Source: Desulfovibrio sp. UCD-KL4C
GTDB lineage: Bacteria > Desulfobacterota > Desulfovibrionia > Desulfovibrionales > Desulfovibrionaceae
DNA: 64,000 nt
NCBI RefSeq assembly: GCF_006210265.1
Contig: NZ_VCNC01000004.1
Span: 186,001-250,000 of the forward strand
Direction: 5' to 3'
This document shows positions 10,862 to 61,380 of the stretch, one piece after another. The first letter of the stretch is position 1, and each line of letters opens with the position of its first letter. A model generated the notes under the pieces. That model was given only the letters and a program-made list of their open reading frames with translations, was not told the DNA's origin and did not search any database. Both the position numbers and the translations under genes were made by a program.

Positions 10862-10909
10862 TAATTTTTTTGACCTGCTTACCTTAATAATAATCAGGAG
10901 AATTTATAT

Positions 10910-40207: not shown

Positions 40208-40212
40208 GGCTG

Positions 40213-40836: not shown

Positions 40837-40849
40837 TCGGCCAGTCATT

Positions 40850-41523: not shown

Positions 41524-41535
41524 ATTATAGTTTCA

Positions 41536-41681
41536 GTTTCTAACTTTATTACTCAGGATTTATTCTTTAAAAGTTAGGATTTTAATTTAGTTTCCAACTT
41601 TATTTTTAAAAAATAAAATTCGGTTTATGTAAAATCAAGTAGCTATAAAAAAATAGTTTCCAACTTTATTACTCACCCACA
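41536..41681 (-). repeat. R-C transposon end with three TnsB-type sites
   Basis: GTTTCTAACTTTATTACTCA (41536-41555), GTTTCCAACTTTATTTT (41590-41606) and GTTTCCAACTTTATTACTCA (41656-41675), ending CCCACA at 41681. The GTTTCC flank is the complement of GGAAAC in L-A; it is therefore the dialect partner of L-A, 28.9 kb away. Confidence 0.8.
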
Positions 41682-41686
41682 GGGTG
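41682..41686. repeat. Target-site duplication GGGTG between units C and D
   Basis: Same pentamer as at 12754-12758 and 57700-57704, exactly between R-C and L-D. Confidence 0.75.
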
Positions 41687-41806
41687 TGTAGGTGAACAAT
41701 AAAGATGTATACTGAACAATAAAGAAGTATACCAGACAATAAAGTTATATACTAAAGCCGTTTCTGTTAGACTAGTAATACGGTCTAAAATAGGAGCGGC
41801 TTTCTT
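41687..41806 (+). repeat. L-D transposon end and leader hairpin
   Basis: TGTAGGTGAAC, then sites AATAAAGATGTATAC (41698-41712), AATAAAGAAGTATAC (41718-41732) and AATAAAGTTATATAC (41738-41752), again at exactly 20-bp spacing. The hairpin AAAGCCGTTTCTGTT / AATAGGAGCGGCTTT (41754-41803) holds AGGAG for the ATG at 41807. Confidence 0.85.
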
Positions 41807-42289
41807 ATGTCAAAAAGAAATAGTGGCTTAACAGAGGCAAAGATCAAAAGGTGGATCAAAGAAGGGCGTGGAGCTGGGCGTGGTCCGGCTTATTCTCCTT
41901 GGTTACGAGTCCGTGATATTCCTTCTAAAGGTAGGTCCCACCGAGTTTTTGGGCACAAATCACGGCGAACACATCATCTATTCTCCGATCTTGAGTTAGC
42001 TGTCTTTTTAACTCTTGATTGGTCTCCCAAAACAACTGAAATTCGAGAACAGTTCCCGTTGCAACAGGGCGTCACCCTTGAGTTGGCAAAAGAGGCCAGC
42101 ATCAGACATCCTCAAGTTTCAGGAACTCTCCAAGTCATGTCCTCAGACTTTCTGGTCAACTCCTCCGATTCCACTCGCCCGAAATTTGTACTGCAAGTAA
42201 AATACGCTAAAGACTTAAGCGATCCAAGGACTGTGGAGAAACTTGAGCTGGAACGACGCTACTGGGCTTATAAAGAAGTTCTTCATTAA
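41807..42289 (+). pseudogene. tnsA: Truncated tnsA of unit D
   Basis: 160 residues closely follow TnsA of unit A and retain the E (SDLELA), D (MSSDFLV) and K (LQVK) positions, then end four residues after RRYWAYK because a deletion joins the gene to the 3' part of tnsE. The C-terminal 110 residues needed for TnsC contact are gone. The N-terminal catalytic domain might fold, but without tnsB it is unlikely to act. Confidence 0.9.
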
Positions 42290-42291
42290 GT

Positions 42292-42894
42292 ATACCAGAT
42301 GATGAGAGCAAAGAAGTAGTTTTACAAGATGTCAGCATGAATGAATCGGTGGCTGGACGTGGTAAAGCCCGTGCAGAATGGAATACAATTAATGACACAA
42401 CAGATAACGACCATTTGTTTGAGAGAAAATTTACTTGTTTTTCAAATATGGTCGACAGATTGAAAGCTAATAGATGGTGCGAGTTTATTTCTTTAGATAC
42501 CAAGAGCTTGCCCCGACGAGGCCGAAGTAAAAAACACCTTCTTTCAACTGACGGAAGTCCAAGGTGTGTGGCTATTGTTCAGTTTAAGATAAGAGATAAG
42601 CATATAGTCTTTTTAGAAGTAGATACCTCTGATGCGGTGAAACCTATTTCAACGTTGGCTATATTAGTACGAGATGCGGCGAAATTAAAATATCAAATAG
42701 GTAAGGTAATGTCCGAGTTTGTAACTGATTCTCTAACATGGCCTACAATATTGCTTTCAGATTATTATGGTAAATGTGGATATGTCAGAATACCGCATCC
42801 TGAATCTAAATCTGGAAATAAAGGAGTCCTACTCCCTAATTCGGTAAATGGATGGGCTAATAGGTGCTTAGTCGCTGTCAGGAAGTTGCGTTGA
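42292..42894 (+). pseudogene. tnsE: 3' remnant of tnsE in unit D
   Basis: Codes for the last ~200 residues of TnsE (IPDDESKEVV, VAGRGKARAEWN, LSTDGSPRCVAIV, LEVDTSDAVKP, VNGWANRCL), parallel to the C terminus of the unit A protein. An ATG at 42337 could start a 185-residue product. The tnsBCD genes and most of tnsE (about 7 kb by comparison with unit A) are deleted. Confidence 0.88.
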
Positions 42895-43244: not shown

Positions 43245-44791
<1,547 letters not shown>

Positions 44792-44795
<4 letters not shown>

Positions 44796-45397
44796 TTCTG
44801 GAAAATAAACTAGGCATCAGTGATCAGATTGAACTGGCCAAGGTCGAAGAGAAAATAAGTAAGCAAAAAGCCAAGCAGCTGTTTGAGTCGGGTGATATCA
44901 AAAAGGTAAACATCGGAACATTTGAAGGACTCGTATTCATTCATTCCTATTTGTTTGGTGAAATTTATGATTTTGCCGGCAAAATACGAGAAGTGAATAT
45001 TGCCAAAGGAAATTTCCGTTTTGCGCCGCTCATGTATCTGGAAGCAGCCTTGAAGCACATAGATTCCATGCCGCAAAGCAACTTTGATGAAATAATTAAA
45101 AAATATGTAGAGATGAACATCGCCCATCCTTTTCGCGAAGGTAACGGCCGCGCAACTCGCATCTGGCTGGATCTCATTTTGAAAAAAGAGATTCGAAAGG
45201 TCATCGACTGGAATCAAGTCGATAAAGAGGAATACCTGTCCGCCATGGAGCGCAGTCCGGTGAAAGATGTTGAAATTAAGGTGCTGTTAAAAAGCGCGTT
45301 GACAGATCAGATCGATGACCGCGCTCTGTTTATGAAAGGCATAGACGTCAGCTATTTCTATGAAGGCTATAGTGAATTTAAGACTGAGGAGCTGTAG
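44792..45397 (+). CDS. fic: Fic-domain AMP-transferase, self-inhibited class
   Basis: Transfers AMP (or a related group) to a target protein. 201 residues with the complete Fic motif [12 protein letters not shown] at 112-123, and the C-terminal motif SYFYEG (S187-E191), matching the inhibitory (S/T)xxxE(G/N) element of class III Fic proteins such as the Neisseria one. The overlap with hsdM and the 1-bp gap to hsdS show that it is part of the restriction operon. Its role there is unknown; a toxin or regulator of the operon are options. Confidence 0.88.
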
Positions 45398-45398
45398 C

Positions 45399-46523
45399 AT
45401 GAGCGAATTGAGTTTTATGGAAAAGTTGATGGATGGGGTTGAGGTGGAGTGGAAGGCGTTGGGGGAACTCGCTGAAAATCTAGATTCAATGCGTAAACCG
45501 ATTAAGAGTGGATTAAGAGATTCAGGTAAAATACCATATTACGGGGCATCGGGCATTGTTGATTATGTTAAAGATTATATCTTTGATGGTGACTTTTTAC
45601 TTGTCTCCGAAGATGGTGCAAATTTGATCGCAAGGAATACACCAATAGCATTTAGTATTAGCGGAAAAAGTTGGGTGAACAATCACGCTCATGTGCTTAG
45701 GTTTAAGACATACGCTGAACGACGCTATATTGAGTATTATCTAAACAGCATTGATCTGACACCATACATCTCCGGTGCAGCACAGCCAAAGCTTAACAAA
45801 AAGAACTTGGAGAGCATTTGTATTCCAAACCCTTCTCTTGAAGAGAAAGAACGTATCGTCCGCATGCTGGACGCATTCACCGAGCTTACCACCGAGCTTA
45901 CCACCGAGCTTACCGCTCGCAAAAAACAATACAACTATTATCGTGACCAGTTGTTGAGTTTTGAAGAAGGGGAAATGGAGTGGAAGGCGTTGGGGGAAGT
46001 GCTTCACATGCGTGCTGGAAAGCATATATCAGCAAGTAAAATCTCGCCAAGTTATAATGATGAATATTTTTATCCATGTTTCGGAGGTAATGGAGTTCGT
46101 GGCTTTGTTAAAGAGCAAAGCCATGATGGAGAGCATTTGCTAATTGGTAGGCAAGGTGCACTTTGCGGGAATGTTCAGCGAATGAAAGGTCAGTTTTATG
46201 CAACTGAACATGCTGTAGTTGTTACGACTAGTAATGAAATAGATATTGACTGGGCTTTCCATGTGCTAACCGTTATGAATTTAAACCAATATGCCTCTCA
46301 GTCTGCTCAACCTGGCCTCGCAGTAGGGAAATTACAAGGGTTAAAGATTCTTTTACCTACTATAGATGAGCAGAAACGCGTTGCATACATTCTAGATAAA
46401 TTTGACGCCCTGACCACCTCCCTCACCGATGGTCTACCCCGCGAAATTGAATTGCGCCAAAAGCAATACGAGTATTACCGCGACTTGATGTTGAGTTTTT
46501 CCAAGTCTAAGGTAGAGGCGTAA
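45399..46523 (+). CDS. hsdS: Type I restriction specificity subunit HsdS
   Basis: Determines the bipartite DNA target. 374 residues with two target-recognition domains (about 15-140 and 195-325) and two similar helical spacers (LEEKERIVRMLDAF and DEQKRVAYILDKFDAL), each leading into a KKQYNYYRDQLL or QKQYEYYRDLML segment. The central spacer contains three copies of a TELT-type tetrapeptide encoded by exact 12-bp repeats, as in EcoR124-type subunits where repeat number sets the gap in the target. I use the ATG at 45399, one base after the fic stop. Confidence 0.95.
   Translation: MSELSFMEKLMDGVEVEWKALGELAENLDSMRKPIKSGLRDSGKIPYYGASGIVDYVKDYIFDGDFLLVSEDGANLIARNTPIAFSISGKSWVNNHAHVLRFKTYAERRYIEYYLNSIDLTPYISGAAQPKLNKKNLESICIPNPSLEEKERIVRMLDAFTELTTELTTELTARKKQYNYYRDQLLSFEEGEMEWKALGEVLHMRAGKHISASKISPSYNDEYFYPCFGGNGVRGFVKEQSHDGEHLLIGRQGALCGNVQRMKGQFYATEHAVVVTTSNEIDIDWAFHVLTVMNLNQYASQSAQPGLAVGKLQGLKILLPTIDEQKRVAYILDKFDALTTSLTDGLPREIELRQKQYEYYRDLMLSFSKSKVEA
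45879..45914 (+). repeat. Three 12-bp repeats in the hsdS central spacer
   Basis: ACCGAGCTTACC occurs three times in perfect tandem (45879, 45891, 45903). Each unit adds four residues to the helical spacer between the two recognition domains. Slippage would change the number without breaking the frame and alter the spacing of the recognised half-sites. Confidence 0.9.
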
Positions 46524-46524
46524 G

Positions 46525-47652
46525 ATGAACAAAACACTAACAGAAATAGCTCAGGAGCTTAAGGATAACCCTAAAAAGGTACAGCTGATCTACGCCTTTA
46601 ATGGAGTGGGTAAAACGCGGCTTTCACGTGAGTTTAAAGAACTCATTATGCCAAAAGGTGTAGAGAGTGACGAAACGGATGATCGTCGCACAACTGTTCT
46701 TTATTACAATGTCTTCACGGAAGACTTGTTCTATTGGGCTAATGACCTTGAGGGTGATGCCGAAAGAAAATTGAAAATTCAGCCCAATGCTTACACTCAG
46801 TGGGTGTTGCAGGACCAGGGGCAGGATCAGAATACGATCAGCAATTTTCAACACTATACTAGTGACAAATTAACTCCTTACTTTAATAATGATTTTTCTG
46901 AGGTTACATTCTCGTTTGGGCGTGGCAATGCTGTGCGAACCGAAAATATTAAAATTTCCAAAGGCGAAGAAAGTAACTTTATTTGGAGTATTTTTTACAG
47001 CCTTATTGAGCAAGTAGTTCATGAACTAAATATTACCGATTCTGACGATCGATCTACAGATCAATATAATAATCTGGAATATATTTTCATTGATGATCCT
47101 GTGAGCTCATTGGACGAAAATCATTTGATTGAGTTGGCAGTGCAGCTGGCTCAACAGATAAAATCTAGTAATTTTACTGGTGATAGAGGGCTAAAGTTTA
47201 TAATCTCAACGCACAGCCCGCTTTTTTACAATGTTCTTTGCAATGAATTGGGTGTGAAATCTGGTTACATCTTAAGGCGAAATGAGGATGAGACATTTGA
47301 ACTTGATCCCAAAAAAGGAGATTCAAATCAGAGTTTTTCCTATCACCTTTACTTAAAACAATGTATTGAGCAGGCCATTTCTGAAAATTCAGTTCAAAAA
47401 TATCATTTCACTTTGCTACGCAATTTATATGAGAAAACAGCAACATTTTTAGGTTATCCTAGATGGTCAGAATTATTGCCCGACGATAAACAGACTTATT
47501 TTAATCGCGTTATTCAATTTACAAGTCATTCGACCTTGTCGAATAACGTTGTCGCTGAACCAACTCCACAAGAGAAGGAAATTGTTAGCTTTTTGCTTGG
47601 GCATTTGAAAACTAACTACGGCTATTGGCTACAGGAAGAAGAAAATGATTAG
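46525..47652 (+). CDS. prrC: PrrC anticodon nuclease
   Basis: RNase kept silent by the type IC restriction complex and released when a phage inhibits it, cutting tRNA-Lys in the anticodon loop. 375 residues; ABC-type ATPase part with Walker [10 protein letters not shown] (23-31), signature SKGEES (145-150) and Walker [12 protein letters not shown] (187-197); the nuclease triad is R299, E303 ([10 protein letters not shown]) and H335 (FTSHSTLS), matching Arg320/Glu324/His356 of E. coli PrrC. The gene sits between hsdS and hsdR, exactly as in the prr locus, and overlaps hsdR by 8 bp. Apparently intact. Confidence 0.95.
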
Positions 47653-50600
47653 TGAAACCAAACCAATTGTAGAATCAAAAAATTTCATTGTTTTAGACAA
47701 ATATACCAAGGAATGGGAGGTCTGCGAAACCTACCAAAGTGAGTACGATTTAGAGTCTGAACTTATCGCTGACTTGCAAAATCAGGGCTACGAATATTTA
47801 TCTGGCTTAAACTCTTTCGAAAAAATGTTGTCCAATGTGCGTGAACAGCTGCAGGTCTTGAACACGATGCAGTTTTCGAACGATGAATGGATACGCTTTG
47901 TCAAAAACTATCTGGATAAACCCAGCGATTCCATTGTCGATAAAACTCGTAAAATCCATGATGACTATATTCATGACTTTGTCTTTGATGACGGACATAT
48001 ACAGAACATATATCTTGTGGATAAGAAAAATATTGCCCGCAATAAAGTTCAGGTAATCAAACAGTTTGAGCAAGCAGGAAGCCACGCCAACCGTTATGAT
48101 GTGACTATACTCGTTAACGGTTTGCCCTTGGTGCAGATTGAGTTGAAAAAACGCGGAGTGGCGATTCGTGAAGCCTTTAATCAGGTGCACCGTTACAGCA
48201 AGGAGAGCTTTAACAGCGAACATTCCTTGTATAAATATTTACAGATTTTTGTGATTTCAAACGGAACGGATAGTCGCTATTTTCCCAACACCACGAAGCG
48301 AAGTAAAAACAGCTTTGACTTCACCATGAACTGGGCAAAGGCCGACAATAGTCTAATCAAAGATCTGAAAGATTTTACGGCTACTTTTCTTCAGAAAAAA
48401 ACTTTGCTTAATGTGCTGCTGCATTATTCGGTGTTTGATGTCACTGATACTCTGCTGGTGATGCGTCCGTATCAGATTGCGGCAACGGAGCGTGTCTTGT
48501 GGAAGGTGAAAAGCTCCTATGAAGCAAAGAGCTGGAGTGATCCCGAAAGCGGCGGTTATATCTGGCATACTACCGGTTCCGGCAAAACCTTAACCAGTTT
48601 TAAGGCGGCGCGTTTGGCGACTGAGGTGGAGTTCATTGATAAGGTGTTTTTTGTCGTCGACCGAAAAGATCTGGATTACCAAACCATGAAAGAATATCAG
48701 CGCTTTTCGCCTGATAGTGTGAATGGTTCTGACAGCACATTAGGTTTAAAGCGCAATCTGGATAAAGACGACAACAAGATTATTGTAACCACTATTCAGA
48801 AGCTTAACAACCTGATGAAAGGTGAAAGTGACCTGCCTATTTATAACAAGCAGGTGGTGTTTATTTTTGATGAATGTCATCGCAGTCAGTTTGGTGAAGC
48901 ACAGAAAAACCTGAAGAGAAAATTTAAAAAGTTTTATCAGTTCGGTTTTACCGGCACGCCTATCTTTCCACCAAATGCCCTTGGTGCGGAGACCACGCAA
49001 AGCGTATTTGGCTGTGAGCTGCACTCGTATGTAATCACTGACGCCATTCGCGATGAAAAGGTCTTGAAGTTTAAGGTGGACTATAACGATGTACGTCCAC
49101 ACTTCAAGGCGATTGAAAGCGAGCTGGATGAGAAAAAGCTTAATGCGGCGGAAACCCCACAGGCCTTGTTGCACCCTGACCGTGTCAAGGAAGTCACGCA
49201 ATATATCCTGAATAATTTTAGGCAGAAAACACATCGTCTAAAATCCGGTACGAAAGGCTTCAATTCCATGTTTGCCGTGAGTAGTGTGGATGCGGCTAAG
49301 CTTTACTACGAGTCGTTCAAGCAATTGCAAAAAGACAGTGATAAGCCACTTAAAGTGGCCACTATCTTTTCGTTTGCGGCCAATGAAGAGCAGGATGCTA
49401 TAGGTGATATTGCGGATGAGGGTTTTGAGCTTTCAGCCATGGACAGCAGTGCTAAAGAGTTCTTAAGTGCGGCTATTGCCGACTATAACACCCTGTTTAA
49501 AACTAATTTTGGCGTGGACAGCAGAGGTTTCCAAAACTATTACCGCGACCTTGCTAAGCGTGTGAAAAGTCAGGATGTTGATCTACTGATTGTGGTGGGG
49601 ATGTTTCTTACCGGCTTTGATGCTCATACGCTGAATACTCTGTTTGTTGATAAGAATTTGCGCTATCACGGCCTGATACAAGCCTATTCGCGTACCAATC
49701 GCATCTATGATGCCACCAAGACCTTTGGCAATATCGTCACCTTCCGTGATCTGGAGCAGGCCACGATCGATGCTATTACTCTGTTCGGCGATAAAAACAC
49801 CAAAAACGTGGTTTTGGAGAAAAGTTATAAAGAGTACATGGAAGGCTTTACCGATGTGGTAACTGGTGAAGCACGACGCGGCTATATGGAAGTGGTAACA
49901 GAATTGCGGCGGCGTTTTCCCAACCCGGATAAGATTGAAAAAGAGTCAGACAAAAAAGCCTTCGCGAAACTGTTTGGCGAATATTTGCGGGTGGAGAATG
50001 TACTGCAAAACTACGATGAATTTGCCAGTCTGAAAGCTTTGCAAAGTGTAGACATGACCGACTCGGAAGCGGTTGAGGCATTTAAGGCCCTGCATTATTT
50101 AAACGATGAAGAATTAAAAGCTATGCAGGATATCAAGATGCCTGCTGATCGCAAAATTCAGGATTATCGCTCTACTTACAACGATATTCGCGATTGGTTA
50201 CGCCGTGAAAAAGCAGGTGCAGAAAAAGCCGAGTCCACAATCGATTGGGATGATGTTGTCTTTGAAGTGGACCTGCTCAAATCTCAAGAGATTAACCTCG
50301 ACTATATTCTGGAGCTAATTTTTGAAAACAGTAAGAAGGTTAAAGACAAGGCCGCGCTGGTTGAAGACGTGCGTCGAGTGATTCGTGCCAGCCTTGGCAA
50401 TCGCGCAAAAGAGAATTTGTTGGTTGATTTTATCAACCAAACCGACCTTGACCGAATCGGTGATAAGGCCAGTGTTATTGATGCTTTTTTTACTTTTGCC
50501 CAAGCGGAACAAAAACGAGAAGCAGAAGAATTAATTGGCTCTGAAGATTTGAATAAAGATGCTGCAAAACGTTATCTCGTTACCTCATTAAAGAGGGAGT

Positions 50601-50746
50601 TTGCCAGTGACAATGGAACAGAGCTCAATTCCGTTCTGCCTAAGATGAGCCCACTAAACCCACAGTATCTTCCCAAAAAACATAGTGTTTTCCAAAAAAT
50701 AGCCGCTTTTGTTGAAAAATTTAAGGGCGTGGGTGGCGAGGTTTAA
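47645..50746 (+). CDS. hsdR: Type I restriction endonuclease/translocase subunit HsdR
   Basis: ATP-driven DNA translocase and nuclease of the restriction complex. 1033 residues: N-terminal PD-(D/E)XK nuclease ([18 protein letters not shown] near 150-170), SF2 helicase with Walker [16 protein letters not shown]-type box [11 protein letters not shown], motif GFTGTPI, and the second RecA domain ([21 protein letters not shown]), then a helical C-terminal part. It starts inside the end of prrC. Completes the operon hsdM-fic-hsdS-prrC-hsdR; a terminator follows. Confidence 0.96.
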
Positions 50747-50979: not shown

Positions 50980-52380
50980 GTGGATATCAGTGCTTGTTTA
51001 TCAAATTGGGGCTCAGTTGCTTCAATTGTCGGAGTTGGGCTTTGGTCTATCAGTCAGGCTGCTCTTAAAGGACTCAGGGGTTATGTTGACCTCAGAAAGA
51101 TCTCCGAGCAACAGTATCAAAGTCAGCTCAAGAAAGAGTTAGCTGATATTTTATTTTCACTAGCTAACGGGGGTGGTCCAAAAGCTAACCTATTGCGAAA
51201 TGGACTTTCAAGAGATGTTGACGTTGATTTTTTGTACAAGCTTGCCGATCAGTCTATTTTGGATGATATCTTATCCCTCTGTATTGCGCAGCTTTCTTCT
51301 GATTGGAGAAAATACAAAAAGAAACAATCTGCGCAATTGGAGAATATAAGAAATTGTTGCGGGGCAGATCGCGACGACCTATCCTCGGAGGAGTTTGAAG
51401 AATATATGAAGGCGGTCATGCCATTACTTTCTGTTAGCTTGTTTCGAGAGCTAGGGGCTGGTGACCGTGCTGTTCTTAATGAGTTTAGCCAGTTTGGAGA
51501 TAAGCTCGAGGGCGTCGTAGGAGTAATTAATTCCAAACTGGATTTTCTATGTGAGTGTAAGGAGAATAAGCAAGAATATGAATTTGATGCTGATTGTATA
51601 AGATGTTTCGCTTTTGTTAACTCCCTTTTATTTTTAAAGCGAGACCATATAAGAGAAATAATGTGTGAGGATACGGGTATAGTAGATGATTTTAGATATT
51701 TTTACGAACTCGATAAGTTTATTAATGACAACGACACGAATACTATTCTTGGATTAATTCTCAAGAGAGTGAGGGAGATCTCCGCAGATAGATATTCGTT
51801 TTTGTCTGATGAAATCTTGGCTGATGCCAGAACCCTGTGTTTTTTAATTTTAGTTTTGAAATCTGAGTTTAAAGAGTCTGAGATTTTAACCCACAAGGAT
51901 ACAAATATTTTTAAATGCGATTATCATGATGGTAAATTAAGGGATCTTGATGCAATGTTGTCTCCTTTGTTGAATAAACAATTTGAGCCTCAGGGTATTA
52001 AGCAATATTATTATGTGTTTGAAGATATGCCAGAGGCTGGATTTACCCGCATTGGAAATAAAGCCGATGCATGTAATGCCGTTTTTAATTCTCTATACAA
52101 TGTTGATTTTGATACAGCTAAACTTGATGATGAGGAGAGAAGAAGATTTAATATTTTTGGTGAAGCTGCTGATGAAGTCAGAATGGATAAGTCTCCCCAT
52201 TATTTTTTTATGGTCTTTCCCAATAGCAATAGCCTTGATATCTCCAACGCATTGTCTGAGGTTTTTCCCCAAGTTGTTTTTGTGAATAAGTATTCTGATG
52301 ATGGTGCACTTAAAATTGTAGACGAAGACACTTTTTCGGCCCTAGCGGATAAAATGGCATTATTTTTAGGTGATGAATAA
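50980..52380 (+). CDS. Unknown protein, first gene of the MoxR/FGE module
   Basis: A 466-residue protein with a GTG start behind CAGGAGTG. Residues 9-30 are hydrophobic (WGSVASIVGVGLWSISQAAL) and may be a membrane anchor; the rest is mostly helical and acidic, with a short alpha/beta part near the end (HYFFMVFPNSNSL, FPQVVFVNKYS). I do not recognise the family. It overlaps the MoxR gene by 8 bp, so it belongs to the same unit. In published descriptions of MoxR/vWA-based conflict systems a third, poorly conserved partner protein is usual; this may be that partner or the effector. Confidence 0.7.
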   Translation: MDISACLSNWGSVASIVGVGLWSISQAALKGLRGYVDLRKISEQQYQSQLKKELADILFSLANGGGPKANLLRNGLSRDVDVDFLYKLADQSILDDILSLCIAQLSSDWRKYKKKQSAQLENIRNCCGADRDDLSSEEFEEYMKAVMPLLSVSLFRELGAGDRAVLNEFSQFGDKLEGVVGVINSKLDFLCECKENKQEYEFDADCIRCFAFVNSLLFLKRDHIREIMCEDTGIVDDFRYFYELDKFINDNDTNTILGLILKRVREISADRYSFLSDEILADARTLCFLILVLKSEFKESEILTHKDTNIFKCDYHDGKLRDLDAMLSPLLNKQFEPQGIKQYYYVFEDMPEAGFTRIGNKADACNAVFNSLYNVDFDTAKLDDEERRRFNIFGEAADEVRMDKSPHYFFMVFPNSNSLDISNALSEVFPQVVFVNKYSDDGALKIVDEDTFSALADKMALFLGDE

Positions 52381-53311
52381 TAAAATAAGGCTGGTGAACG
52401 AAATGGATTATTTTTGGGATGAAAAGCATAAATTTGCAATCAAGGCCGCGATTAAAGCAAAACGCCCTTTACTTGTTCGCGGGGAGCCTGGTGTGGGCAA
52501 AAGCACGCTTGCTAAAGCTGCGGCATTTAATTTGCTGAACAGGTATTATATTTCTGAGACTGTAACCGCAAGCACTGAGGCAAACGATCTGCTTTGGCAG
52601 TTCGATGCGGTTCAACGCCTTGGAGACGCACAGGTATCAAAATCAGATAGCACGATCACACTCGACAAAGAGAAGTATATTGCTCCAGGAATATTATGGT
52701 GGGCATACCAGCCAGAAGAAGCGTTAAAGCGGTATGGAGATTGTTCAGGAGGATGTTCTCCCTCAATTAAAATAATGGAAGAATTGAGAATTGGTAATGA
52801 AAATTCTAAAAGTGATTCTGGCACTAGGACCAATGGGTGGGTTGTTCTGATCGACGAAATAGACAAGGCGGATGCTAACGTACCGAATTCGTTGCTGGAA
52901 GCTTTTGCAGAGAATGGTTTTACAGTCCCATATTTAAAGAATGCGGTGGAGTTAGATACTGATTTGGGCCAGCCTCTTATAATAATTACTACGAATGAGG
53001 ACCGGCAGCTTCCTCCTGCATTCTTGCGCCGTTGTTTTGTTCTTCATATGGAAATACCGGACGAGTCAGATGAGGCCGTTAAATGGTTGCTGGATCGTGC
53101 TGGGGCGTGCAGTGATATTGATGTTGATCCTAAGACGTTGCAGTATCTTGCTGTAAAGGTTGTTGATGATCGGGAGAGAAGTTCGGGGCCACATAGGCCA
53201 GGCTTGAGCGAATTTTTGGATCTTGCCCGTGTTTTTTCGTTGTCGCCCAAGATCTCCTCGGCAGAATTGGGAGAAAGCTTTTCCTTTGTCCTTCAAAAAA
53301 ACGCGCGATAG
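52373..53311 (+). CDS. MoxR-type AAA+ ATPase
   Basis: A chaperone-like AAA+ ATPase that usually works with a von Willebrand factor A domain protein. 312 residues: Walker A GEPGVGKST (about 37-45), Walker B VVLIDEIDKADANVPNSLL, sensor 1 IIITTNEDRQLPPAFLRR, sensor 2 GPHRPGLSEFLDLAR. The ATG at 52373 overlaps the preceding gene; GTG at 52370 is an alternative. It stops 6 bp before the large vWA-like/FGE gene. The set resembles the MoxR-vWA-partner conflict systems described for many bacteria. Confidence 0.88.
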   Translation: MNNKIRLVNEMDYFWDEKHKFAIKAAIKAKRPLLVRGEPGVGKSTLAKAAAFNLLNRYYISETVTASTEANDLLWQFDAVQRLGDAQVSKSDSTITLDKEKYIAPGILWWAYQPEEALKRYGDCSGGCSPSIKIMEELRIGNENSKSDSGTRTNGWVVLIDEIDKADANVPNSLLEAFAENGFTVPYLKNAVELDTDLGQPLIIITTNEDRQLPPAFLRRCFVLHMEIPDESDEAVKWLLDRAGACSDIDVDPKTLQYLAVKVVDDRERSSGPHRPGLSEFLDLARVFSLSPKISSAELGESFSFVLQKNAR

Positions 53312-53317: not shown

Positions 53318-56290
53318 ATGGGCAACCGTAATTATAAACATACTTCAGGGCCAGTAGGACTCGCCGATATTGAGTTGCTGTTAAGAGAGTTTCCTAGTGG
53401 TGACCGGAAAGTAATCGGTGGTTTAGTTGGGTATGACTATTTTCCCGAAAGGGTTTTTCAAGGTGGAGGTGTCTCTGGTGGACAGCAGAATGATTTAATC
53501 CAGCAGAAGGAAGCCAGTGGGGGTGAATCAAATGAATTTCCAGAATCGACTGAAAAGCCGTTAAAGCCCAATTTTTGGTTTGTTGAATCTAGGAAACGGT
53601 TGGATAAGGATCGTCCGCCTTCATCCGACGGTATTGATTTCGGTAATGGAGAATTGCCAAAATTGAAATCATCTCCCCCCCCTCCTTTCTCTCCGATATC
53701 TTCATGGGCAAAGTTGTGGCCGATCATCAAAAAAGCTCTTCATGGGCGGAAGAAGTCCCGCCAGCCTGATGTGGTAAAGGCTGTCCGTATGCTTGCACGT
53801 GGGGCTTTCCTTCAAGAAATTCCTTTGAAAGAGTCGAACGTTTGGGCTCCATTCTCGCAGATTCTTGTTGACGTTCATTTGCGATTGTTTCCGTTCTGGA
53901 CTGATTTTCATATGGTTGTAAACGGTGTTTCCGATTTGGTTAGTAAATCAGGGCTTGAAAAGCATTTTATTCGATTTGGTCCGCTTGAGGATGCCATTAA
54001 TCACGAGCGGATGGAATATTACCCATTGCAAATTGATCCATATGGAGCTCCTTTACTTATCTTATCTGACTTAGGAGTTTATGGATCGGACAGTGATAGG
54101 GAAGATTGGTGTGAGTTTGGTCGCATGCTTCATGAGCAGGGCATTAATCCTGTTGTTTTGACTCCCGTTCCTGAACGTCTTTGGGATGATCGTCATAAGC
54201 ACCTCTACAAGATGATTTGCTGGGATGACTCCATGTCCTGTGCGACTGACGGACTGAGCAAGTCAGGCTTGCTGCCTACGGCTGAGAGTGTCCTCAAACT
54301 TTGTTCGTCAGCACTGCGTATAGAGCCGGGTTTGTTGCGAAAGGTAAGGCGTATTCTGCCCGGTGCGGATGTTGGAGTAGAAGGCCTTGTCTGGAACCAT
54401 CCTGATGTCATTAGAACTAGCTTGTCGTGCTCAATCAGGCCTGAAAAGATTGTTGCTTATCAGGATAGTCTTTGCCGCATTCAGAAAGATGCGGGGCAGC
54501 TCGGTAACGATTCGCTTCTCCTGATGAAGGCTCTCTTTGATAAATCTTTTCAGGTAATACAAGACTACCATACAGAGCTTCCTGTAGAGGTCCGCTTGGA
54601 GGAACAGCTTGTCCAGCATTCTTTGAAGTTGTGTTTTTCCAATGCTGGTAATGGTATAGGAGAGGATTTATCTGTTCTTCCGGAAGAGTTGGTCCATTAT
54701 CTGGGCTGGCTTAAAGAAGGTGCTATCAGTTTTGAAGATACGGACCACGAATCTGTACAGAATTGGATCAGACGTATGGGGATGCGACAAAATAGGTCTG
54801 TCCTTAATGTTTATGGAGCTGGTTATTTAAAGAGTGCCGTTGCCAATGCTTTTAAAGATCAACCTAAAGATCAACCGCTTCCTAAAATTATTGTAGAAGA
54901 CGATGTAAAGAAAGCCCGTGGTGAAGATCCAGTTCCGCCTAGGTTCTGGGAAGCTTTGCAATATGGCGAGCAACTTGTTTTTAGGATGAAGACTTCTCAT
55001 ACCAGTGCAGTGAGAGGGGAGACCCCGTTATTTTCTTTTTCCGCTCAGGAGAAATTGACCCTTTTTACTGGAGAGAAAGAAGATAATTTTGAATTAAAAG
55101 AGGGTTTACTATATCCACTAGAGAAATTATCGAAAGTAGTGGTCTCTTCTTCTAAGGAAGAGTTTGTCCTCTCCTTAGAACCCAAACCCGACTGGGCCGA
55201 ATCAATCTATCGCGATTTCACAGGCCTATACGCGACCCTACCTTTGAATGATTCCAAGATTCAATATGAACTTCCAACTGAAATAGATTTGATGAAGGGC
55301 TATTATAGTAGCATTGAGAAAGATGACCAGAATGATGAGCCTTTTAAGCTTAGTGCTTCCCAACTGAGTGGATCTGATTCTTTGAGTGGGGGCAGATCAC
55401 AGAATGGTTCCAGTTTGCTAAGTAAAATTATTCGTAAGCACTCTGGTGATAATTATGAAGAAGGCTTCTGGCTAAACCGCTCACAACTTGAGCAAATATT
55501 AGAATCAGGAGTTCCATATGTTTCATGGGCGGAAACATATGGCTTTGATCAATACGGGCTCTACGCAGAGCTAAATATTTTAGGCATTACCCAACGTATG
55601 CGCTGGATACAGCCCGGAATCTTTTTGATGGGGTCTCCCGAAGATGAGCCTGACCGTGATAATGATGAAAAGTTACATGCAGTTACTTTGACTAAAGGTT
55701 ATTGGCTTGCTGATACGGCTTGTACTCAGGAACTGTGGGAAAAGGTTATGGGTAATAATCTAAGCTATTTTAAAGGTGACGCGCGATTACCCGTTAAAAG
55801 TGTCTCATGGGGTGCTTGTCAGGAATTTTTACAAACCGCAAATAAGGAACTAAAAGGACTTAATCTCCAGTTCCCCACCGAAGCGCAATGGGAGTACGCC
55901 TGCCGTGCCGGAACAGAAACTCCTTTTTCATTTGGCGATAACATTAATACAGATCAAGTTAATTATAACGGAAACCATCCGTATAAAGATGCAGTGAAGG
56001 GTGAATATAGAAAGCACACTGTCGCTGTAAATGAACAGCCCTGCAACCAATGGGGGCTTTACCAGATGCACGGCAATGTATGGGAATGGTGCGCTGACTG
56101 GTATGGCAAGTATCAGCAAGAATCAATTAATGATCCTCAAGGTCCTGCAAATGGCGAGCTCCGTGTTATGCGTGGCGGCAGCTGGGTTAGCTACGGTAGG
56201 CACGTGCGTTCTGCCGCCCGTTACGGGTACAATCCCGACGTCCGTTACGACGATTTCGGGTTCCGTTTTTCCCTAGGCCAAAAGGGGTAG
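53318..56290 (+). CDS. vWA-like protein with C-terminal FGE (lectin-fold) variable domain
   Basis: A 990-residue protein. Residues 1-150 are Pro/Ser-rich and disordered. About 150-340 look like a degenerate vWA or SAV_2336-type domain (ILVDVHLRLFPFW in place of the metal site; LLILSDLGVYGSD; GINPVVLTPVPERLW). 340-730 are unassigned. About 735-990 form a formylglycine-generating-enzyme (FGE) type domain, a C-type lectin fold (RWIQPGIFLMGSPEDE, VSWGACQEFL, FPTEAQWEYACRAG, MHGNVWEWCADW, MRGGSW, GFRFSLGQKG). The last 40 residues are a DGR-type variable region. Such FGE domains are binding modules, not enzymes. Probable ligand-sensing arm of the MoxR system. Confidence 0.82.
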   Translation: MGNRNYKHTSGPVGLADIELLLREFPSGDRKVIGGLVGYDYFPERVFQGGGVSGGQQNDLIQQKEASGGESNEFPESTEKPLKPNFWFVESRKRLDKDRPPSSDGIDFGNGELPKLKSSPPPPFSPISSWAKLWPIIKKALHGRKKSRQPDVVKAVRMLARGAFLQEIPLKESNVWAPFSQILVDVHLRLFPFWTDFHMVVNGVSDLVSKSGLEKHFIRFGPLEDAINHERMEYYPLQIDPYGAPLLILSDLGVYGSDSDREDWCEFGRMLHEQGINPVVLTPVPERLWDDRHKHLYKMICWDDSMSCATDGLSKSGLLPTAESVLKLCSSALRIEPGLLRKVRRILPGADVGVEGLVWNHPDVIRTSLSCSIRPEKIVAYQDSLCRIQKDAGQLGNDSLLLMKALFDKSFQVIQDYHTELPVEVRLEEQLVQHSLKLCFSNAGNGIGEDLSVLPEELVHYLGWLKEGAISFEDTDHESVQNWIRRMGMRQNRSVLNVYGAGYLKSAVANAFKDQPKDQPLPKIIVEDDVKKARGEDPVPPRFWEALQYGEQLVFRMKTSHTSAVRGETPLFSFSAQEKLTLFTGEKEDNFELKEGLLYPLEKLSKVVVSSSKEEFVLSLEPKPDWAESIYRDFTGLYATLPLNDSKIQYELPTEIDLMKGYYSSIEKDDQNDEPFKLSASQLSGSDSLSGGRSQNGSSLLSKIIRKHSGDNYEEGFWLNRSQLEQILESGVPYVSWAETYGFDQYGLYAELNILGITQRMRWIQPGIFLMGSPEDEPDRDNDEKLHAVTLTKGYWLADTACTQELWEKVMGNNLSYFKGDARLPVKSVSWGACQEFLQTANKELKGLNLQFPTEAQWEYACRAGTETPFSFGDNINTDQVNYNGNHPYKDAVKGEYRKHTVAVNEQPCNQWGLYQMHGNVWEWCADWYGKYQQESINDPQGPANGELRVMRGGSWVSYGRHVRSAARYGYNPDVRYDDFGFRFSLGQKG

Positions 56291-56299
56291 CCGGAGGCG
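56168..56299 (+). repeat. DGR-type variable region VR1 and its conserved 3' tail
   Basis: Codons 56168-56257 differ from VR2 (57303-57392) at about 20 bases, nearly all in NNC codons where a template AAC would give both forms: TAC/CAC, CAC/ATC, GCC/CGC, TAC/GGC, GTC/GAC, GAC/AGC, TTC/GTC. Directly after, 42 bases (56258-56299) starting GGGTTCCGTTTTTCCCTAGG are identical in the two copies and would be the homing-initiation region. Confidence 0.8.
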
Positions 56300-56325
56300 C
56301 AAAAGGAAGAGGCGAGCCCCTGCCG

Positions 56326-56348
56326 GGCTGCGTGGCGGAGCAGCAGCC
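56326..56348 (+). repeat. Hairpin downstream of VR1
   Basis: GGCTGC and GCAGCC form a stem with an 11-base loop, 27 bp past the shared tail. The same hairpin follows VR2 at 57461-57483. Target-side hairpins just past the variable region are known from retroelement-diversified genes. Confidence 0.55.
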
Positions 56349-56392
56349 AAGGTCTGGGGCGGTAAGTTCTGTATAAACTGCAAGGATATTGT

Positions 56393-56518
56393 ATGAAGTA
56401 TGCTTTTTTTACTGTGCCGATTGGGTGCAAAGAGTCCGAGCAGGAGTTGAATTCTTTTTGCTCCAGCCACCGAATTCTGTCAGTGGAAAAGCATTTTGTG
56501 GTGGATGTCGAGGCTTGA
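56393..56518 (+). pseudogene. Remnant of a DGR accessory gene (HRDC-associated type)
   Basis: A 41-codon frame with a fair ribosome site (AAGGAT). The product begins MKYAFFTVPI and continues EQELNSFCSSHRILSVEKHF, a pattern I recognise from the N terminus of accessory proteins encoded between DGR targets and the reverse transcriptase, which usually go on into an HRDC domain. Here it stops at TGA after VVDVEA. The next 88 bp up to 56606 hold no further gene. Confidence 0.5.
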
Positions 56519-56606
56519 TGGCAAAAAGAAAATGGCCATCGGTATGTTAGTAGGACTTCCGAAAGCTTGCCGATGTGCCGCTCATTAAAATTAAGGTGAT
56601 AAAAAT

Positions 56607-57425
56607 ATGACCTGTGGTTTCATAGATAATTGCGCGCTGCCAGCCCCTTTTCCTCCGCTATGGGCAACCGCTTGGGGGCAGGACCAGTACGGACTTTGGG
56701 CTGATTTGCAGATTGAAGGAGTCGATCAACGTATGCGCTGGATTCGCCCCGGAACTTTTATTATGGGGTCTCCCGAAGATGAATCGGGGAGAGGTGGCAG
56801 TGAAGTGCAGCATGAAGTTACTTTGACGAAAGGCTATTGGCTGGCAGACACAGCATGTACTCAGGAACTGTGGGGAAAGGTCATGGGCAATAATCTAAGT
56901 AAGTTTAAAGGTGACGCGCGATTACCCGTTAAAAGTGTCTCATGGGATGCTTGTCAGGAATTTTTACAAACCGCAAATAAGGAACTAAAAGGACTTAATC
57001 TCCAGTTCCCCACCGAAGCGCAATGGGAGTACGCCTGCCGTGCCGGAACAGAAACTCCTTTTTCATTTGGGGACAATATTACTACCAAGCAGGTAAATTA
57101 TGACGGTAACTATCCATATAGCAACGGAGAAAAAGGTGAATACAGAGAGAAGACAGTTGCAGTAAAGGAACTTCCCTGCAACCAGTGGGGACTTTACCAA
57201 ATGCACGGCAATGTGTGGGAATGGTGCGCTGATTGGTATGGCGACTATGAGAAAAAATCTGTTAAAGATCCTAAAGGTCCTGCAGGTGGCGAGCACCGTG
57301 TTGTGCGTGGCGGCAGCTGGATCAGCCACGGCGGGATCGTGCGTTCTGCCCGCCGCAACGGGGGCTATCCCGACGACCGTTACAGCGATGTCGGGTTCCG
57401 TTTTTCCCTAGGCCAAAAGGGGTAG
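56607..57425 (+). CDS. Stand-alone FGE (lectin-fold) variable protein
   Basis: A 272-residue protein consisting almost only of the FGE-type domain, near-identical in blocks to the C-terminal domain of the 990-residue protein (a run of about 165 bp shows a single mismatch). It keeps WIRPGTFIMGSPEDE, FPTEAQWEYACRAG, MHGNVWEWCADWY, VRGGSW and GFRFSLGQKG. The last 40 residues are VR2. The first 18 residues are unique and contain Cys and Pro. No signal peptide. It is probably a second, separately diversified binding module of the same system, or a duplicate of the original target gene. Ribosome site AAGGTGAT. Confidence 0.85.
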   Translation: MTCGFIDNCALPAPFPPLWATAWGQDQYGLWADLQIEGVDQRMRWIRPGTFIMGSPEDESGRGGSEVQHEVTLTKGYWLADTACTQELWGKVMGNNLSKFKGDARLPVKSVSWDACQEFLQTANKELKGLNLQFPTEAQWEYACRAGTETPFSFGDNITTKQVNYDGNYPYSNGEKGEYREKTVAVKELPCNQWGLYQMHGNVWEWCADWYGDYEKKSVKDPKGPAGGEHRVVRGGSWISHGGIVRSARRNGGYPDDRYSDVGFRFSLGQKG

Positions 57426-57434
57426 CCGGAGGCG
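57303..57434 (+). repeat. DGR-type variable region VR2 and conserved 3' tail
   Basis: Variable stretch 57303-57392 followed by 42 bases identical to the tail of VR1 (57393-57434). The three third-position changes (GTT/ATC, GGT/GGC, CGT/CGC) could also come from template A. Confidence 0.8.
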
Positions 57435-57460
57435 TAAAAGGAAGAAGTGAGCCCCTGTCG

Positions 57461-57483
57461 GGCTGCGTAGCGGAGCAGCAGCC
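57461..57483 (+). repeat. Hairpin downstream of VR2
   Basis: GGCTGC with GCAGCC around an 11-base loop, at the same distance from the tail as the VR1 hairpin. Confidence 0.55.
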
Positions 57484-57552
57484 AAGGTCAGGGAGCGGCG
57501 GGGTGGAACAGGTCGTGAACTGAAAAATGGATGTGATTTACTTGAAATTTTA

Positions 57553-57699
57553 GTATACAACTTTATTGTTCAAAAAAGCCCGATTTTTTAGGAGTGAGGC
57601 TAATCCAGTATACAACTTTATTATTAAGCTACGGAATTGAGTCCATGAGAAATAAGGCTTTAAAAGCCGTTCAGTATACAACTTTATTGTTCTCCCACA
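57553..57699 (-). repeat. R-D transposon end with three TnsB-type sites
   Basis: GTATACAACTTTATTGTT (57553-57570), GTATACAACTTTATTATT (57608-57625) and GTATACAACTTTATTGTT (57674-57691), ending CTCCCACA at 57699. Same GTATAC dialect as L-D. Confidence 0.85.
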
Positions 57700-57704
57700 G
57701 GGTG
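57700..57704. repeat. Target-site duplication GGGTG between units D and E
   Basis: Third copy of the pentamer, exactly between R-D and L-E. Confidence 0.75.
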
Positions 57705-57802
57705 TGTGGGTGAACAATAAAGATCTTACTGAGTAATAAAAAAGTATACTAAAGCCGCTTCTGTTAGATTAAAATACGATCTAAAACAGGAGCGGCTTTT
57801 TT
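57705..57802 (+). repeat. L-E transposon end and leader hairpin
   Basis: TGTGGGTGAACAATAAAG, two sites (one degenerate, second AATAAAAAAGTATAC at 57735-57749) and the hairpin AAAGCCGCTTCTGTT / AACAGGAGCGGCTTT (57751-57798), T6, then ATG at 57803 with AGGAG in the 3' arm. Confidence 0.8.
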
Positions 57803-58620
57803 ATGTCAAAAAGAAATAATGGCTTAACAGAGGCAAAGATCAAGAAGTGGATCAAAGAAGGGCGTGGGAACGGCCATTGACCTATGTATAAGCCTTGGCT
57901 AACTGTTCGGGACATTGCTTCCAAAGGTAGGTCTCACCGAATTTTTGGCCACAAATCCCGCCGAATACATCATCTTTTTTCCGATCTAGAGCTGGCTGTT
58001 TTTTTAGTCTTGATTGGTGTCACAAGACAATTGATATCCGTGAGCAGTTTCCATTACAGCAAGAAGTCACATTTGAATTAGCAAGAGATGTCGGTATCAG
58101 ACATCCCCAAGTCTCAGGGTCTTTCCAAGTCATGTCCTCAAATTTTCTGGTCAACTCTTTTGATCCAGCTCTTCCGAAATTTGTACTGCAAGCAAAATAC
58201 GCTAAAGACCTAAGCGATCCAAGAACCGTGGAAAAGCTTGAGCTGGAACAACGCTATTGGGAACATAAAAATGTTCCATGGTTTCTGGTTACTGAGAAAG
58301 AGATTTCACGAACAGCTTCTCAGAATATTGAATAGTTATACCCTGACCAGCAAAGGGATTATAAATTTAGTGAGTTGGCTGAGCAATTGACCTTTTACCC
58401 TCACCATTTTGCGAAGAACTCTTCCTCAACCATAATTCAAATTTCAAAATTACTGGATGTTAAATATGACCATGAAGCCGGGGAATCGCTGGCTGAAATT
58501 AGAGAACTTTTAGCGAGTCGATTACTATCTTTTGACGTGAATATTCCATTCAGAAAGATAACCCCTGCGGATATTCGTTTCGTGGATGATATTTCTGTTT
58601 TGGAGGCTATTAATGTTTAG
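57803..58620 (+). pseudogene. tnsA: tnsA pseudogene of unit E
   Basis: All of TnsA is recognisable across frames: MSKRNNGLTEAKIKKWIKEG, KGRSHRIFGHKSRR, SDLELAVFL, MSSNFLVNSFDPALPKF (the catalytic D is now N), KNVPWFLVTEKEIS and a C-terminal domain up to the TAG at 58620. A stop at about 57878 (TGA after GNGH), a frameshift near 58010 and a stop at 58333 (TAG) disable it. Its end overlaps the tnsB start as in unit A. Confidence 0.9.
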
Positions 58621-60548
58621 GGTAAATGAAGTCTTTGCATATGAAGGTAAGTTGTTCCGTGTTTTGCAAATCTTATCGGAACAATTGGTTTGGATTGACA
58701 TGGCTGACCCAAAGGCCTTTCCAGTGGTTATGCTTACTAAAGAGTTACGTATAGCTTTAGAGGACGGTGTACTTCTTCGTGCTGAAGATCCTTTTGCACA
58801 ATTAGCGTTTGAAACTCCTGAGCCTGGTTCCTCTGCTCAGAAAAAACGAGACAAAAATTATACGCTGATTTTAGATATTGTTGCTGATCCCCGTAGCTAT
58901 CTTCCCAAAGTTAGGGCTGTGTATATAAATGAAATTGTGTCTGACGGTCGGGCTACGAAACGTAGTATATACATAGCCTTGCGCAGATACTGGCAGCGCG
59001 GGCAAACACCCAATGCTTTACTTCATGACTATAAGAATTCAGGGGGTAAGGGAAAAAAGAAGAAGGCTTCGGGTAAATTGGGAAGGCCCCGGAAATATAC
59101 TTCAGGTGTGGGAGCTGTAATTGACGAGCAAGTCGAACAGCTTTTCAGAAGAACAATTGATAAATACCTTTTGAAAGATAAAAAGATTAGCATTGCTTAT
59201 GCTCATAGAAGGTTTAAAACTTTATATAAAAATATTTTTCCGGAGATATTGGACTCTGAAGTTCCCACCAAAAGACAGATGCAGTATTTTTATCAGCGTG
59301 AATATAGTCAGATAGAAAGGTTAAAAAAAACGAACCAGCTCTATTGAATACAACAAAGACACACGCCAGCTAATAGGGACTGCAACCAGCAATGCTTTGG
59401 GGCCAGGTTCCCGTTTTGGGATCGATGCTACAATTGCAGATATCTATCTCGTTTCGGACAGTGATCGAGGAAATATTGTCGGCCGTCCGGTCATCTACAT
59501 GGTTATCGATGTCTTCAGCAGAATGGTTGTGGGATTTTATGCAGGCTCTTGCTACGGCAATGACTGATAAGGTTGAGTGGTGCAAGCAATTTGATTTTGA
59601 TGATGTTACCTACGAAGATTGGCCCGTTGTTGGCCTGCCTAGCGTAATCCTTGCGGACAGGGGAGAGTTGCTCGGGCACCAGATTGAATCACTTGTAAGT
59701 AATTTGGGTGTGCGTATTGAGAATGCCCCACCCTATCGGGGTGAAGCGAAAATGTCTGTTTTTGAATTTAAGCAGATAATTATGTCTACTGTTCTGCTTC
59801 ATAATAAATATCACGTGCTTGAGAAATACGACAGAGAAGTCGATATGCCTGCTGATCTGGCAATGACTCCTTTGTCTTTGTGGAATTGGGGAATTCAAAA
59901 TAGAACGGGCCGATTAAGGACAGCTTCAGAAGATGCTCTTAGGATTAGCTTGTTGCCCAGAGTCAAGGCCACTGCTTCTGAATTGGGAGTTTCTGTTTTT
60001 GGGGTATATTATACCTCCTCAAAACTCATGAAAAGTGGTTGGATGCACAGATCAAAAGATGTTCATAGACCGGTGGGGATGTTTGCGGCCTACGACCCTG
60101 CTTCAGCTGATAATGTTTATCTTTTTCCTTTTAAGGGAAAGTCTGATTATTGGGCCTGCTCGTTAACCGATCGCTCTAGAGAGTTTCAAGGGAGTTCTTT
60201 CTGGGATGTGTGGCAGGTCAAGGATGCGCAAAAGCGGGCTATAGCTAAAAGTAAACAGGAGGAAGCTGAATAAAAGCGACTTCATGAAGAATTTGTTAGC
60301 GGTCTTATCAAATCTGCTAAAAAGAAGAGTCCTGACACAAGGCATATGAGCAACGCTGAGCGGATACGTGGAATCAGGGGCAACAAAGTTCAAGAAAAAG
60401 AAGCTGAGAGGAATGTCCCGTTCTATAAGCCGGAAAAAAATGTAATGATGAACCTGCGAAGGTTTTTTCTTTGAATGGGGATATCCAGGAAGAAGATTAT
60501 AGTTATCCAGATTTTATAGATGAACTTTTTGACGAAGAGGATAGTTAA
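58613..60548 (+). pseudogene. tnsB: tnsB pseudogene of unit E
   Basis: The first 240 residues are intact and close to TnsB of unit A. Then an extra base after an A8 run near 59331 shifts the frame, about 50 bp are missing around 59540 (the GFESPSYAA part), and a deletion near 59749 removes the third catalytic residue E with its surroundings. A stop (TAA at 60271-60273) and further drift follow. No DDE transposase activity is possible. Confidence 0.92.
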
Positions 60549-61380
60549 ATGACGCTCCCGAAGAATATGGTAAGAGCAGTTTACCCCCCCCCTCTGCTGT
60601 TCCGAGATATAAAGGAAATCCATGTATTGAGGCTTTGCCAGTTGAAATGTCTCATGCGCAGGTGAAGAAGAGTTTGCGTGGTGATGTTAAGTTTAACATT
60701 GAGGATATCTTCGCAGATAAACGCGTGCGGGCACATATGATCCCATCTTTATTGGACGATTTTTTTCAGCCTTTAGCTGCTCATATTAAGCTTGAGGAAC
60801 GGCTATCTATAATGATTAGGCGGGGGAGTGTTGGGCGAAATTATGAAGATGGTTCTTGGGCAGCCCATATGCAGAACGGCTATGAGCGGCTTAAAAGTGG
60901 AAAACTTGATACTTGTACGTTTAAGAAGGCTCATTCCACAGCTTCAAGTTTGCTGCTTCTTGGGGGCTCCGGTAGTGGCAAGACAACAGCATTAAATCGT
61001 ATTCTTGTTACATATCCTCAGTCTATTTTTCATCAAAAATATAATTTTATTCAGGTAGTTTATTTGAAGATAGATTGCCCTCATGATGGGGGATTAAGAA
61101 TCTCTGTGTCAATTTTTTTCGTGCTTTGGATCGAGTTTTGGATACTAACTATGAGAAAAGATATGTCCAAAAGAGATCTACTGCGGAAACATTGCTAAAT
61201 TTGATGCCTCATGTTGCAAATCTGCATGGACTGGGGCTGTTGGTTATTGATGAGATTCAGCATTTGAGCAGAAAAGGTCGGGCGGTGTTGATAAGATGCT
61301 CAATTTTTTTGTCACAATGGTCAACACAATTGGACTTCCTGTGGTTTTAGTTGGGACACCTTAGGCCAGATCAATCTTTG
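60549..61380 (+). pseudogene. tnsC: tnsC pseudogene of unit E
   Basis: Start MTLPKNMVRAV, then a frameshift at a C8 run near 60585, an ATPase region with Walker A GGSGSGKTT, and, after another frameshift near 61090, Walker [13 protein letters not shown]. It ends in a stop near 61363 in the region corresponding to GTPKAREIF of the intact protein and joins a tnsE tail by deletion. Confidence 0.88.

Follow-up and report, generated by a model that had tools for sequence, protein, structure and literature searches.

How do two genes come to end in the paired variable regions (VRs) of a diversity-generating retroelement (DGR) when no reverse transcriptase (RT) or template repeat (TR) accompanies them? 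The question is raised by a 64,000-nucleotide stretch of Desulfovibrio sp. UCD-KL4C (contig NZ_VCNC01000004.1, positions 186,001 to 250,000; hereafter the window, in whose coordinates we give its features), in which two neighboring genes encode FGE-domain proteins. The original prediction, made from the sequence alone, attributed the ends of these genes to adenine mutagenesis and homing, and set two explanations side by side: diversification in trans or a frozen state. We consider it very likely that both genes are former targets of a DGR that was once complete between them, and that deletion of most of an HRDC gene, the RT and the TR left the targets open and their VRs frozen.

Target 1 (53318..56290, + strand, 990 residues) joins a long N-terminal extension to a C-terminal FGE/C-type-lectin domain (FGE-sulfatase, PF03781, E 7.1e-41), and target 2 (56607..57425, + strand, 272 residues) consists of this domain alone (PF03781, E 1.3e-41). 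Each carries its VR at the C-terminus, VR1 at 56159..56276 and VR2 at 57294..57411, both on the + strand. Over the 32 VR codons from RGG to GFR, the targets differ 10, 5 and 3 times at codon positions 1, 2 and 3, compared to 32, 27 and 70 times over the 220 codons before the VR; third positions make up 3/18 of the differences in the VR and 70/129 in the preceding codons (Fisher p=0.0045). Scored against the TR of a same-genus locus described below, VR1 and VR2 differ at 14 of 30 template adenines and at 6 of 88 other positions (p=4e-6), which bears out the prediction of paired DGR variable regions. Three of these six non-adenine differences are third-position C/T changes, all with T in VR1 and C in both VR2 and the TR; the other three (TR positions 9, 72 and 91, 0-based) may be adenines of the window's own lost template. 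The run of identity between the two genes, which spans the 3′ end of VR1, the stop codon and the start of the tail, had been put at 42 bases and measures 44 (56256..56299, + strand), and the downstream hairpins, described as identical, are only similar (76 of the 81 bases from 56267 match). These predicted hairpins lie on the + strand at 56316..56360 and 57451..57496, the first in what we take to be the position of the DGR target hairpin. Their folding energies do not surpass those of shuffled sequences (z -0.03 and -0.40; -1.29 to +0.08 over five copies of the VR-tail hairpin), and energy alone lends them no statistical support. Further upstream, the two FGE genes are 91% identical over 300 bases (55676-55975 and 56811-57110), beside strongly diverged blocks.

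We searched 17 genomes of the genus with the DNA of the VR gene (genomes are numbered G and loci L, with one genome per species; G000 is the genome of the window). Five matched: G000, G004, G012, G014 and, weakly, G007. In G004 the element is complete and in order, and comprises, in reverse-complement coordinates of locus L121, target 1 (4682-7492), an HRDC gene (7599-8096; PF00570, E 1.3e-13), an RT (8068-9075; PF00078, E 3.3e-17), a TR of 118 bases (9109-9226) and target 2 (9372-10190). The VRs of G004 depart from their own TR at 18 and 17 of its 30 adenines and at none of the 88 other bases. VR1 and VR2 of the window depart from the same TR preferentially at its adenines, with mismatches at 18/30 adenines and 16/88 other bases for VR1 (p 3.6e-5) and at 15/30 and 12/88 for VR2 (p 1.2e-4). 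With a real TR and RT in a same-genus locus, these counts support the predicted adenine mutagenesis and homing. Most of the non-adenine positions at which the window VRs depart from the G004 TR also differ in the VRs of G012, indicating that these mismatches are largely template divergence between lineages. Two further RTs, a second one in G004 (contig C15) and that of G014, are characterized as RVT_1 matches only.

The 316 bases between the targets of the window fall into two main blocks of alignment with G004. The left block (56291-56505 against G004 7493-7711, 79% identity) holds the tail hairpin and a 41-codon open reading frame (ORF; 56393..56518, + strand) made up of HRDC codons 1-38, with 82% amino acid identity to G004 HRDC residues 1-38, followed by the scar. 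The right block (56515..56604, + strand; 78% identity to G004 9280-9370, E 1.5e-15) is what remains of the spacer found 3′ of the TR in G004. Nine bases at the deletion junction (56506..56514) align to neither flank. Relative to G004, about 1.57 kb (7712-9279) is lost, namely HRDC from codon 39, the RT and the TR. Of an accessory gene of the Avd or HRDC type, just HRDC codons 1-38 remain at the window locus, the intact protein having PF00570. In the sequence of events that we favor, the DGR would have used a common TR to rewrite the C-terminal loops of the two proteins, the deletion would have removed most of the HRDC gene, the RT and the TR in place, and the VRs would since stand at their last-written versions, with both targets open.

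The same junction bears on the possibility that an RT cassette is present in the organism and was dropped from the assembly by repeat misassembly. As repeats, VR1, TR and VR2 could collapse in an assembly. Such a collapse would fuse VR to VR or VR to TR, whereas the junction observed joins HRDC codon 38 to the spacer past the TR, and three other genomes have comparable, differing junctions; we regard misassembly as very improbable. Still less credence goes to the idea that the targets are ordinary FGE paralogues whose VR likeness arose by gene conversion and whose differences arose by ordinary positive selection. Identical blocks upstream of the VRs do suggest gene conversion between these paralogues: two successive 20-codon blocks have no third-position differences between the targets, and this near-identical stretch is probably the product of recent conversion. 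However, the changes in the VRs track the adenines of a real template in the sister locus of G004, an HRDC-RT-TR cassette formerly lay between the genes, and third positions in the VRs are almost constant while first and second positions vary.

The RT and TR, reported as absent from the window, are also absent from the whole assembly (3.93 Mb, 11 contigs, 99.91% complete) by profile, protein, DNA and pattern searches. The RVT_1 profile had no match in it at E<=0.001 or at E<=0.1, while the same search recovered the G004 RT at 2e-17, and the G004 RT protein had none there at E<=10. A search of the assembly for a TR with VR DNA returned the two VRs and six matches of at most 27.4 bits (E>4), and a 20-base tail pattern with up to 3 mismatches occurred in it twice, at the two VRs. 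The check suggested with the original prediction, a genome-wide search for the tail beside a template and a DGR-type RT, thus found the tail at the two VRs only and no RT. Across the 17 genus genomes, a degenerate version of the pattern had three occurrences in G004, at its two VRs and its TR, two each in G000 and G012, one in G014 and none in the other 13. Diversification in trans from within the genome was rejected for the assembled sequence, from which RT and TR are absent.

Alternatively, a plasmid, a phage or an incoming conjugative element outside the assembled genome might supply an RT and TR that still diversify the VRs in trans. In Dore 2024, the targets of DGR 4 and 5 are reported to be diversified in trans, and what looks like action at a distance was found in Synechococcus sp. 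Tobar12-5m-g (L101/L180), in which a VR pair without third-position differences (0/32) has its TR and RT on the same contig at a distance of ~22 kb, and non-adenine mismatches between VRs and remote TR stand at 1-2/103 positions. For the window, by contrast, RT and TR were not found in the assembly, and a phage- or plasmid-borne template was rejected as a candidate after searches that gave no relevant match. The VR-gene DNA had no match in 72,556 plasmid records. Among 50,697 phage records it matched just two, both of one Microcystis phage, over 45 bases that lie outside the VR; the tail pattern had 0 matches in IMG/VR contigs. The G004 RT protein matches 4,148 plasmid records, all at <60% identity, a count that is uninformative about the VRs. 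In addition, a TR like that of G004 would import its own non-adenine bases, and the window VRs differ from it at 12-16 of 88. We therefore consider a mutator acting from outside the assembly unlikely.

If the VRs are frozen, they should carry a record of how long. Homing holds the non-adenine sites of paired VRs equal, and these sites drift after its loss. Third-position differences between paired VRs, per 32 codons and with those of the preceding body in brackets, number 0 in G004 (29/220), 0 in G020, a genome of the same family (65/223), 1 in G012 (61/220), 3 in G000 (70/220) and 11 in G014 (74/212). The 3/32 of the G000 pair is below the 61/221 between the target-1 bodies of G000 and G012 (p=0.029), and the freeze therefore looks younger than the split of these two lineages. 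Between the orthologous VRs of G000 and G012, 18/30 and 23/30 adenine sites differ, and the element was therefore active after the split. We infer that drift began with the deletion described above. In G014, VR divergence equals body divergence (p=1.0), and this locus appears to be an old loss. Its VR scaffold seems to have stayed under selection, since changes in VR codons without a TR adenine are synonymous in 7/10 cases against 18/60 sites (p=0.011). Nonsynonymous and synonymous divergence (dN/dS) between G000 and G012 was 0.136/0.452 and 0.147/0.401 for the two targets, with dN below dS in both. The scar, the lack of both RT and TR in the assembly and the third-position differences between the VRs favor the frozen half of the original either-or prediction, and the trans half is not favored.

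Several observations weigh against this account. The third-position differences between the window VRs number only three, which is few, and the paralogue gene conversion visible upstream could have lowered this count. G020 has neither RT nor TR and yet stands at 0/32, showing that the clock is blind to recent losses. The assembly is in 11 contigs, so a replicon may be missing. Finally, the stretch missing from G012 encloses the one missing from G000, and the two could share a first deletion; separate losses are favored because both VR pairs, at 3/32 and 1/32, differ less than the orthologues at 61/221 (p=0.029 and 0.0015).

To place these counts in a broader setting, we made a rough survey of 84 loci (80 relatives plus G000, G004, G012 and G014). 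A match to the G004 RT lay inside the locus DNA in 8 relatives (partial in L038) and in G004, and at least two usable VR ends were available in 27 loci. Third-position differences in the six RT-bearing VR-VR or VR-TR pairs were 0, 0, 1, 0, 0 and 0 (G004, L032, L035, L043, L060 and L083; L032 is a TR-VR pair). The 11 RT-less pairs gave 1 (G012), 3 (G000), 11 (G014), 0 (G020), 5 (L033), 22 (L039), 8 (L041), 18 (L044), 1 (L046), 3 (L051) and 14 (L027, from 14, 18 and 14), and a one-sided rank test separated the two groups at p=0.002. Excluded from the test were L025 (contig end), L029, L057, L073, L077 and L096 (unequal-length pairs only), L054, L056, L079 and L097 (MoxR gene not found) and L101 (remote RT). 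The test is weak: a common template may never have existed for some RT-less pairs, and the genome of L041 has a close RT elsewhere. A whole-genome RT check of 12 relatives without a nearby RT, several of them draft or metagenome-assembled genomes, found none at E<=1e-5 in L027, L029, L033 and L046, matches of only E 1e-6 to 1e-12 in L039, L044 and L051, a 33%-identical RT in L026, RTs of 44-45% identity elsewhere in L025, L036 and L041, and the remote RT of L101, which accounts for the seemingly exceptional 0/32 of that locus. The TR-like stretch beside the distant RT of L025 and L041 does not seem to be the current template, because it departs from the VRs at 5-12 non-adenine sites. In RT-bearing loci, VR ends with a local TR show 0-4 such differences, except in L038 (5/45 and 9/110), where the RT match is partial; L024 and L032 each have one end without a TR match.

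Loss of the cassette has recurred among paired targets in the family. The 272-residue protein has matches at E<=1e-40 in 31 of 288 family genomes, among them G282, with two adjacent FGE genes. We examined the modules of G000, G004, G012, G014, G020 and G160; by eye, the second gene of G160 is not like a full target. In four of the five paired-target modules, RT and TR are lost and both targets are open. G012, G014 and G020, the first two of the window's genus, have lost HRDC, RT and TR from between the targets, and their scars differ. Neither a TR nor a DGR-like RT was found in these three genomes; G020 has no RT of any kind, and G012 and G014 have other RTs. An 888-residue RT of G012 was considered as a trans enzyme and rejected: it aligns with part of the DGR RT, at 27% identity, and the G012 genome yielded no TR.

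All three loci have a short ORF with an HRDC-like start, of 17, 21 and 13 codons in G012, G014 and G020, respectively, the first ~8-10 codons being HRDC-like. The HRDC start codon and about 8 codons are kept in all four RT-less family loci (window 56393; L122 11663 and L123 10744, reverse complement; L158 8277), even in G014, the old loss. In G014 this short ORF and the start of target 2 overlap; in G012 the ORF stops 5 bases short of that start. Outside the family, locus L026 of Candidatus Accumulibacter meliphilus has two HRDC stretches, residues 1-60 and 1-64, with no RT found nearby. These N-terminal stretches (10906-11091 and 14274-14471) run into similar repeat-like sequence and adjoin three FGE ends and a MoxR gene, and the gene before MoxR begins like what we take to be a TIR protein. 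One could imagine, tentatively and with more doubt than conviction, that the RT-TR cassette is lost under selection, as a 'lock-in' by which a hypermutable sensor becomes a fixed receptor passed on by inheritance, that this has been repeated in the four scarred family loci and in the lineage of the Accumulibacter HRDC remnants, and that the HRDC start is kept as a leader cistron for target 2.

The targets belong to a module of four genes. The first encodes a 466-residue protein (50980..52380, + strand) and the second a MoxR-like AAA ATPase (52370..53311, + strand; PF07728 AAA_5, E 3.5e-13). Pfam matched neither the 466-residue protein nor the 741 N-terminal residues of target 1 at E<=0.1, a threshold that degenerate domains could escape, and searches of the former against Pfam, PADLOC and PDB sequences returned no usable match. 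Among the 84 loci, a homologue of the 466-residue protein is recognizable in G012 alone (42% amino acid identity, compared to 89% for the ATPase), with no recognizable counterpart in G004 or G014; a relative of the ATPase is present in 20 of the 80 relatives' loci and in G004, G012 and G014. The variable member of the module is its first gene: the 466-residue protein occupies the slot that holds a variable gene in related modules, and it may be the effector. The predicted structure of target 2 (predicted local distance difference test, pLDDT, 91.4) best matches 2y3c (template-modeling scores 0.75/0.73, E 1.1e-19). By sequence and by fold, this nearest solved structure is the Treponema denticola variable protein 1, which is a product of a DGR.

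The module appears from its flanking repeats and genes to be cargo of a Tn7-family island in the window. The island starts at a cluster of CAACTTTATT-type sites, repeated in both orientations (41532..41756), and a second such cluster (57549..57753) marks the cargo end, followed by a tnsA-like stretch and a tnsB-like ORF; both clusters are putative Tn7-type ends. Behind the first lie a TnsA-like ORF (41807..42289, + strand; PF08722, E 5.5e-15) and an ORF with a TnsE C-terminal domain (42337..42894, + strand; PF18623, E 7.5e-34). The tnsB-like ORF (59392-60273) matches Mu-transpos_C at E 0.0029 and 18 bits, under the 21.7 cut-off. Three related tnsA-like stretches stand behind three end-like repeat clusters (40.3, 41.8 and 57.8 kb; the 41.8 copy was the one compared with Pfam). 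The stretches 40100-42300 and 57540-61200 look like nested or tandem Tn7-family insertions, partly decayed; a weak AAA ORF among them is presumably tnsC-like, with a weak tnsB-like ORF alongside, and the insertions end near what we take to be a lipoyl-synthase-like gene (62660-63535). The neighboring cargo comprises type I restriction-modification genes (43245..50746, + strand): HsdM (43245-44795), Fic (44792-45397), HsdS (45360-46523), AAA_13 (46525-47652) and HsdR (47645-50746), with the Fic-domain gene between hsdM and hsdS and the AAA_13 gene between hsdS and hsdR. Elsewhere, the module neighbors relaxase and ArdC-type genes in G004 and G012, with a topoisomerase also in G004, and an insertion sequence transposase and HsdM in G014.

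Clade 5A DGR loci consist of a MoxR ATPase, a long target and a short target with the C-type lectin domain only (PMC10907252), and the window module is organized like one of them, Thiohalocapsa PB-PSB1 DGR 8, except that it lacks the RT, a whole accessory gene and the TR. In Thiohalocapsa, the RT genes of some loci are replaced by arrays resembling miniature inverted-repeat transposable elements, and some targets are served in trans. MoxR-vWA ternary systems with VMAP (PMC7159879) likewise combine a MoxR ATPase, an FGS (FGE-like) domain protein and an association with DGRs; the window proteins differ in having no vWA or VMAP domain recognized by Pfam (E<=0.1; degenerate domains could be missed). 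The authors of PMC10907252 propose that the targets are antigen sensors and that the ATPase is a relay in ternary systems. By analogy we adopt this reading for the window module, in which the targets may still work as fixed sensors that would signal via the MoxR-like ATPase, possibly to the 466-residue protein, as part of a system of conflict with phages or plasmids.

Targets without a mutator have also been described. T. denticola isolates without RT and TR hold adenine-biased target genes, read as leftovers of lost core DGRs (PMC4891356), and the intact T. denticola DGR has an HRDC accessory gene. Most of those targets are predicted lipoproteins, whereas those of the window are a pair linked to a MoxR AAA ATPase; the portions of PMC4891356 compared do not map a deletion junction, whereas in the window it is mapped and losses are ranked by third positions. 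In Anabaena PCC 7120, all3226 keeps remnant TR-VR homology without a nearby RT (PMC7517822); it is one of three dispersed paralogues, whereas the window keeps both targets at the original locus with the scar between them. A partial literature search turned up neither a paper on this locus nor one describing a VR pair carried as cargo by a Tn7-family element.

Orphan DGR targets are thus already known, and the window adds unusually direct evidence on the manner and order of mutator loss. To our knowledge, DGR surveys start from the RT, and so miss targets that have lost it. If the targets are immune sensors, as others have proposed, they offer natural examples of hypermutated receptors that are now fixed, and the losses can be ranked by scars and by a third-position clock. 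Whether a mutator disappears through neglect or once a good receptor has been found thereby becomes a testable question.

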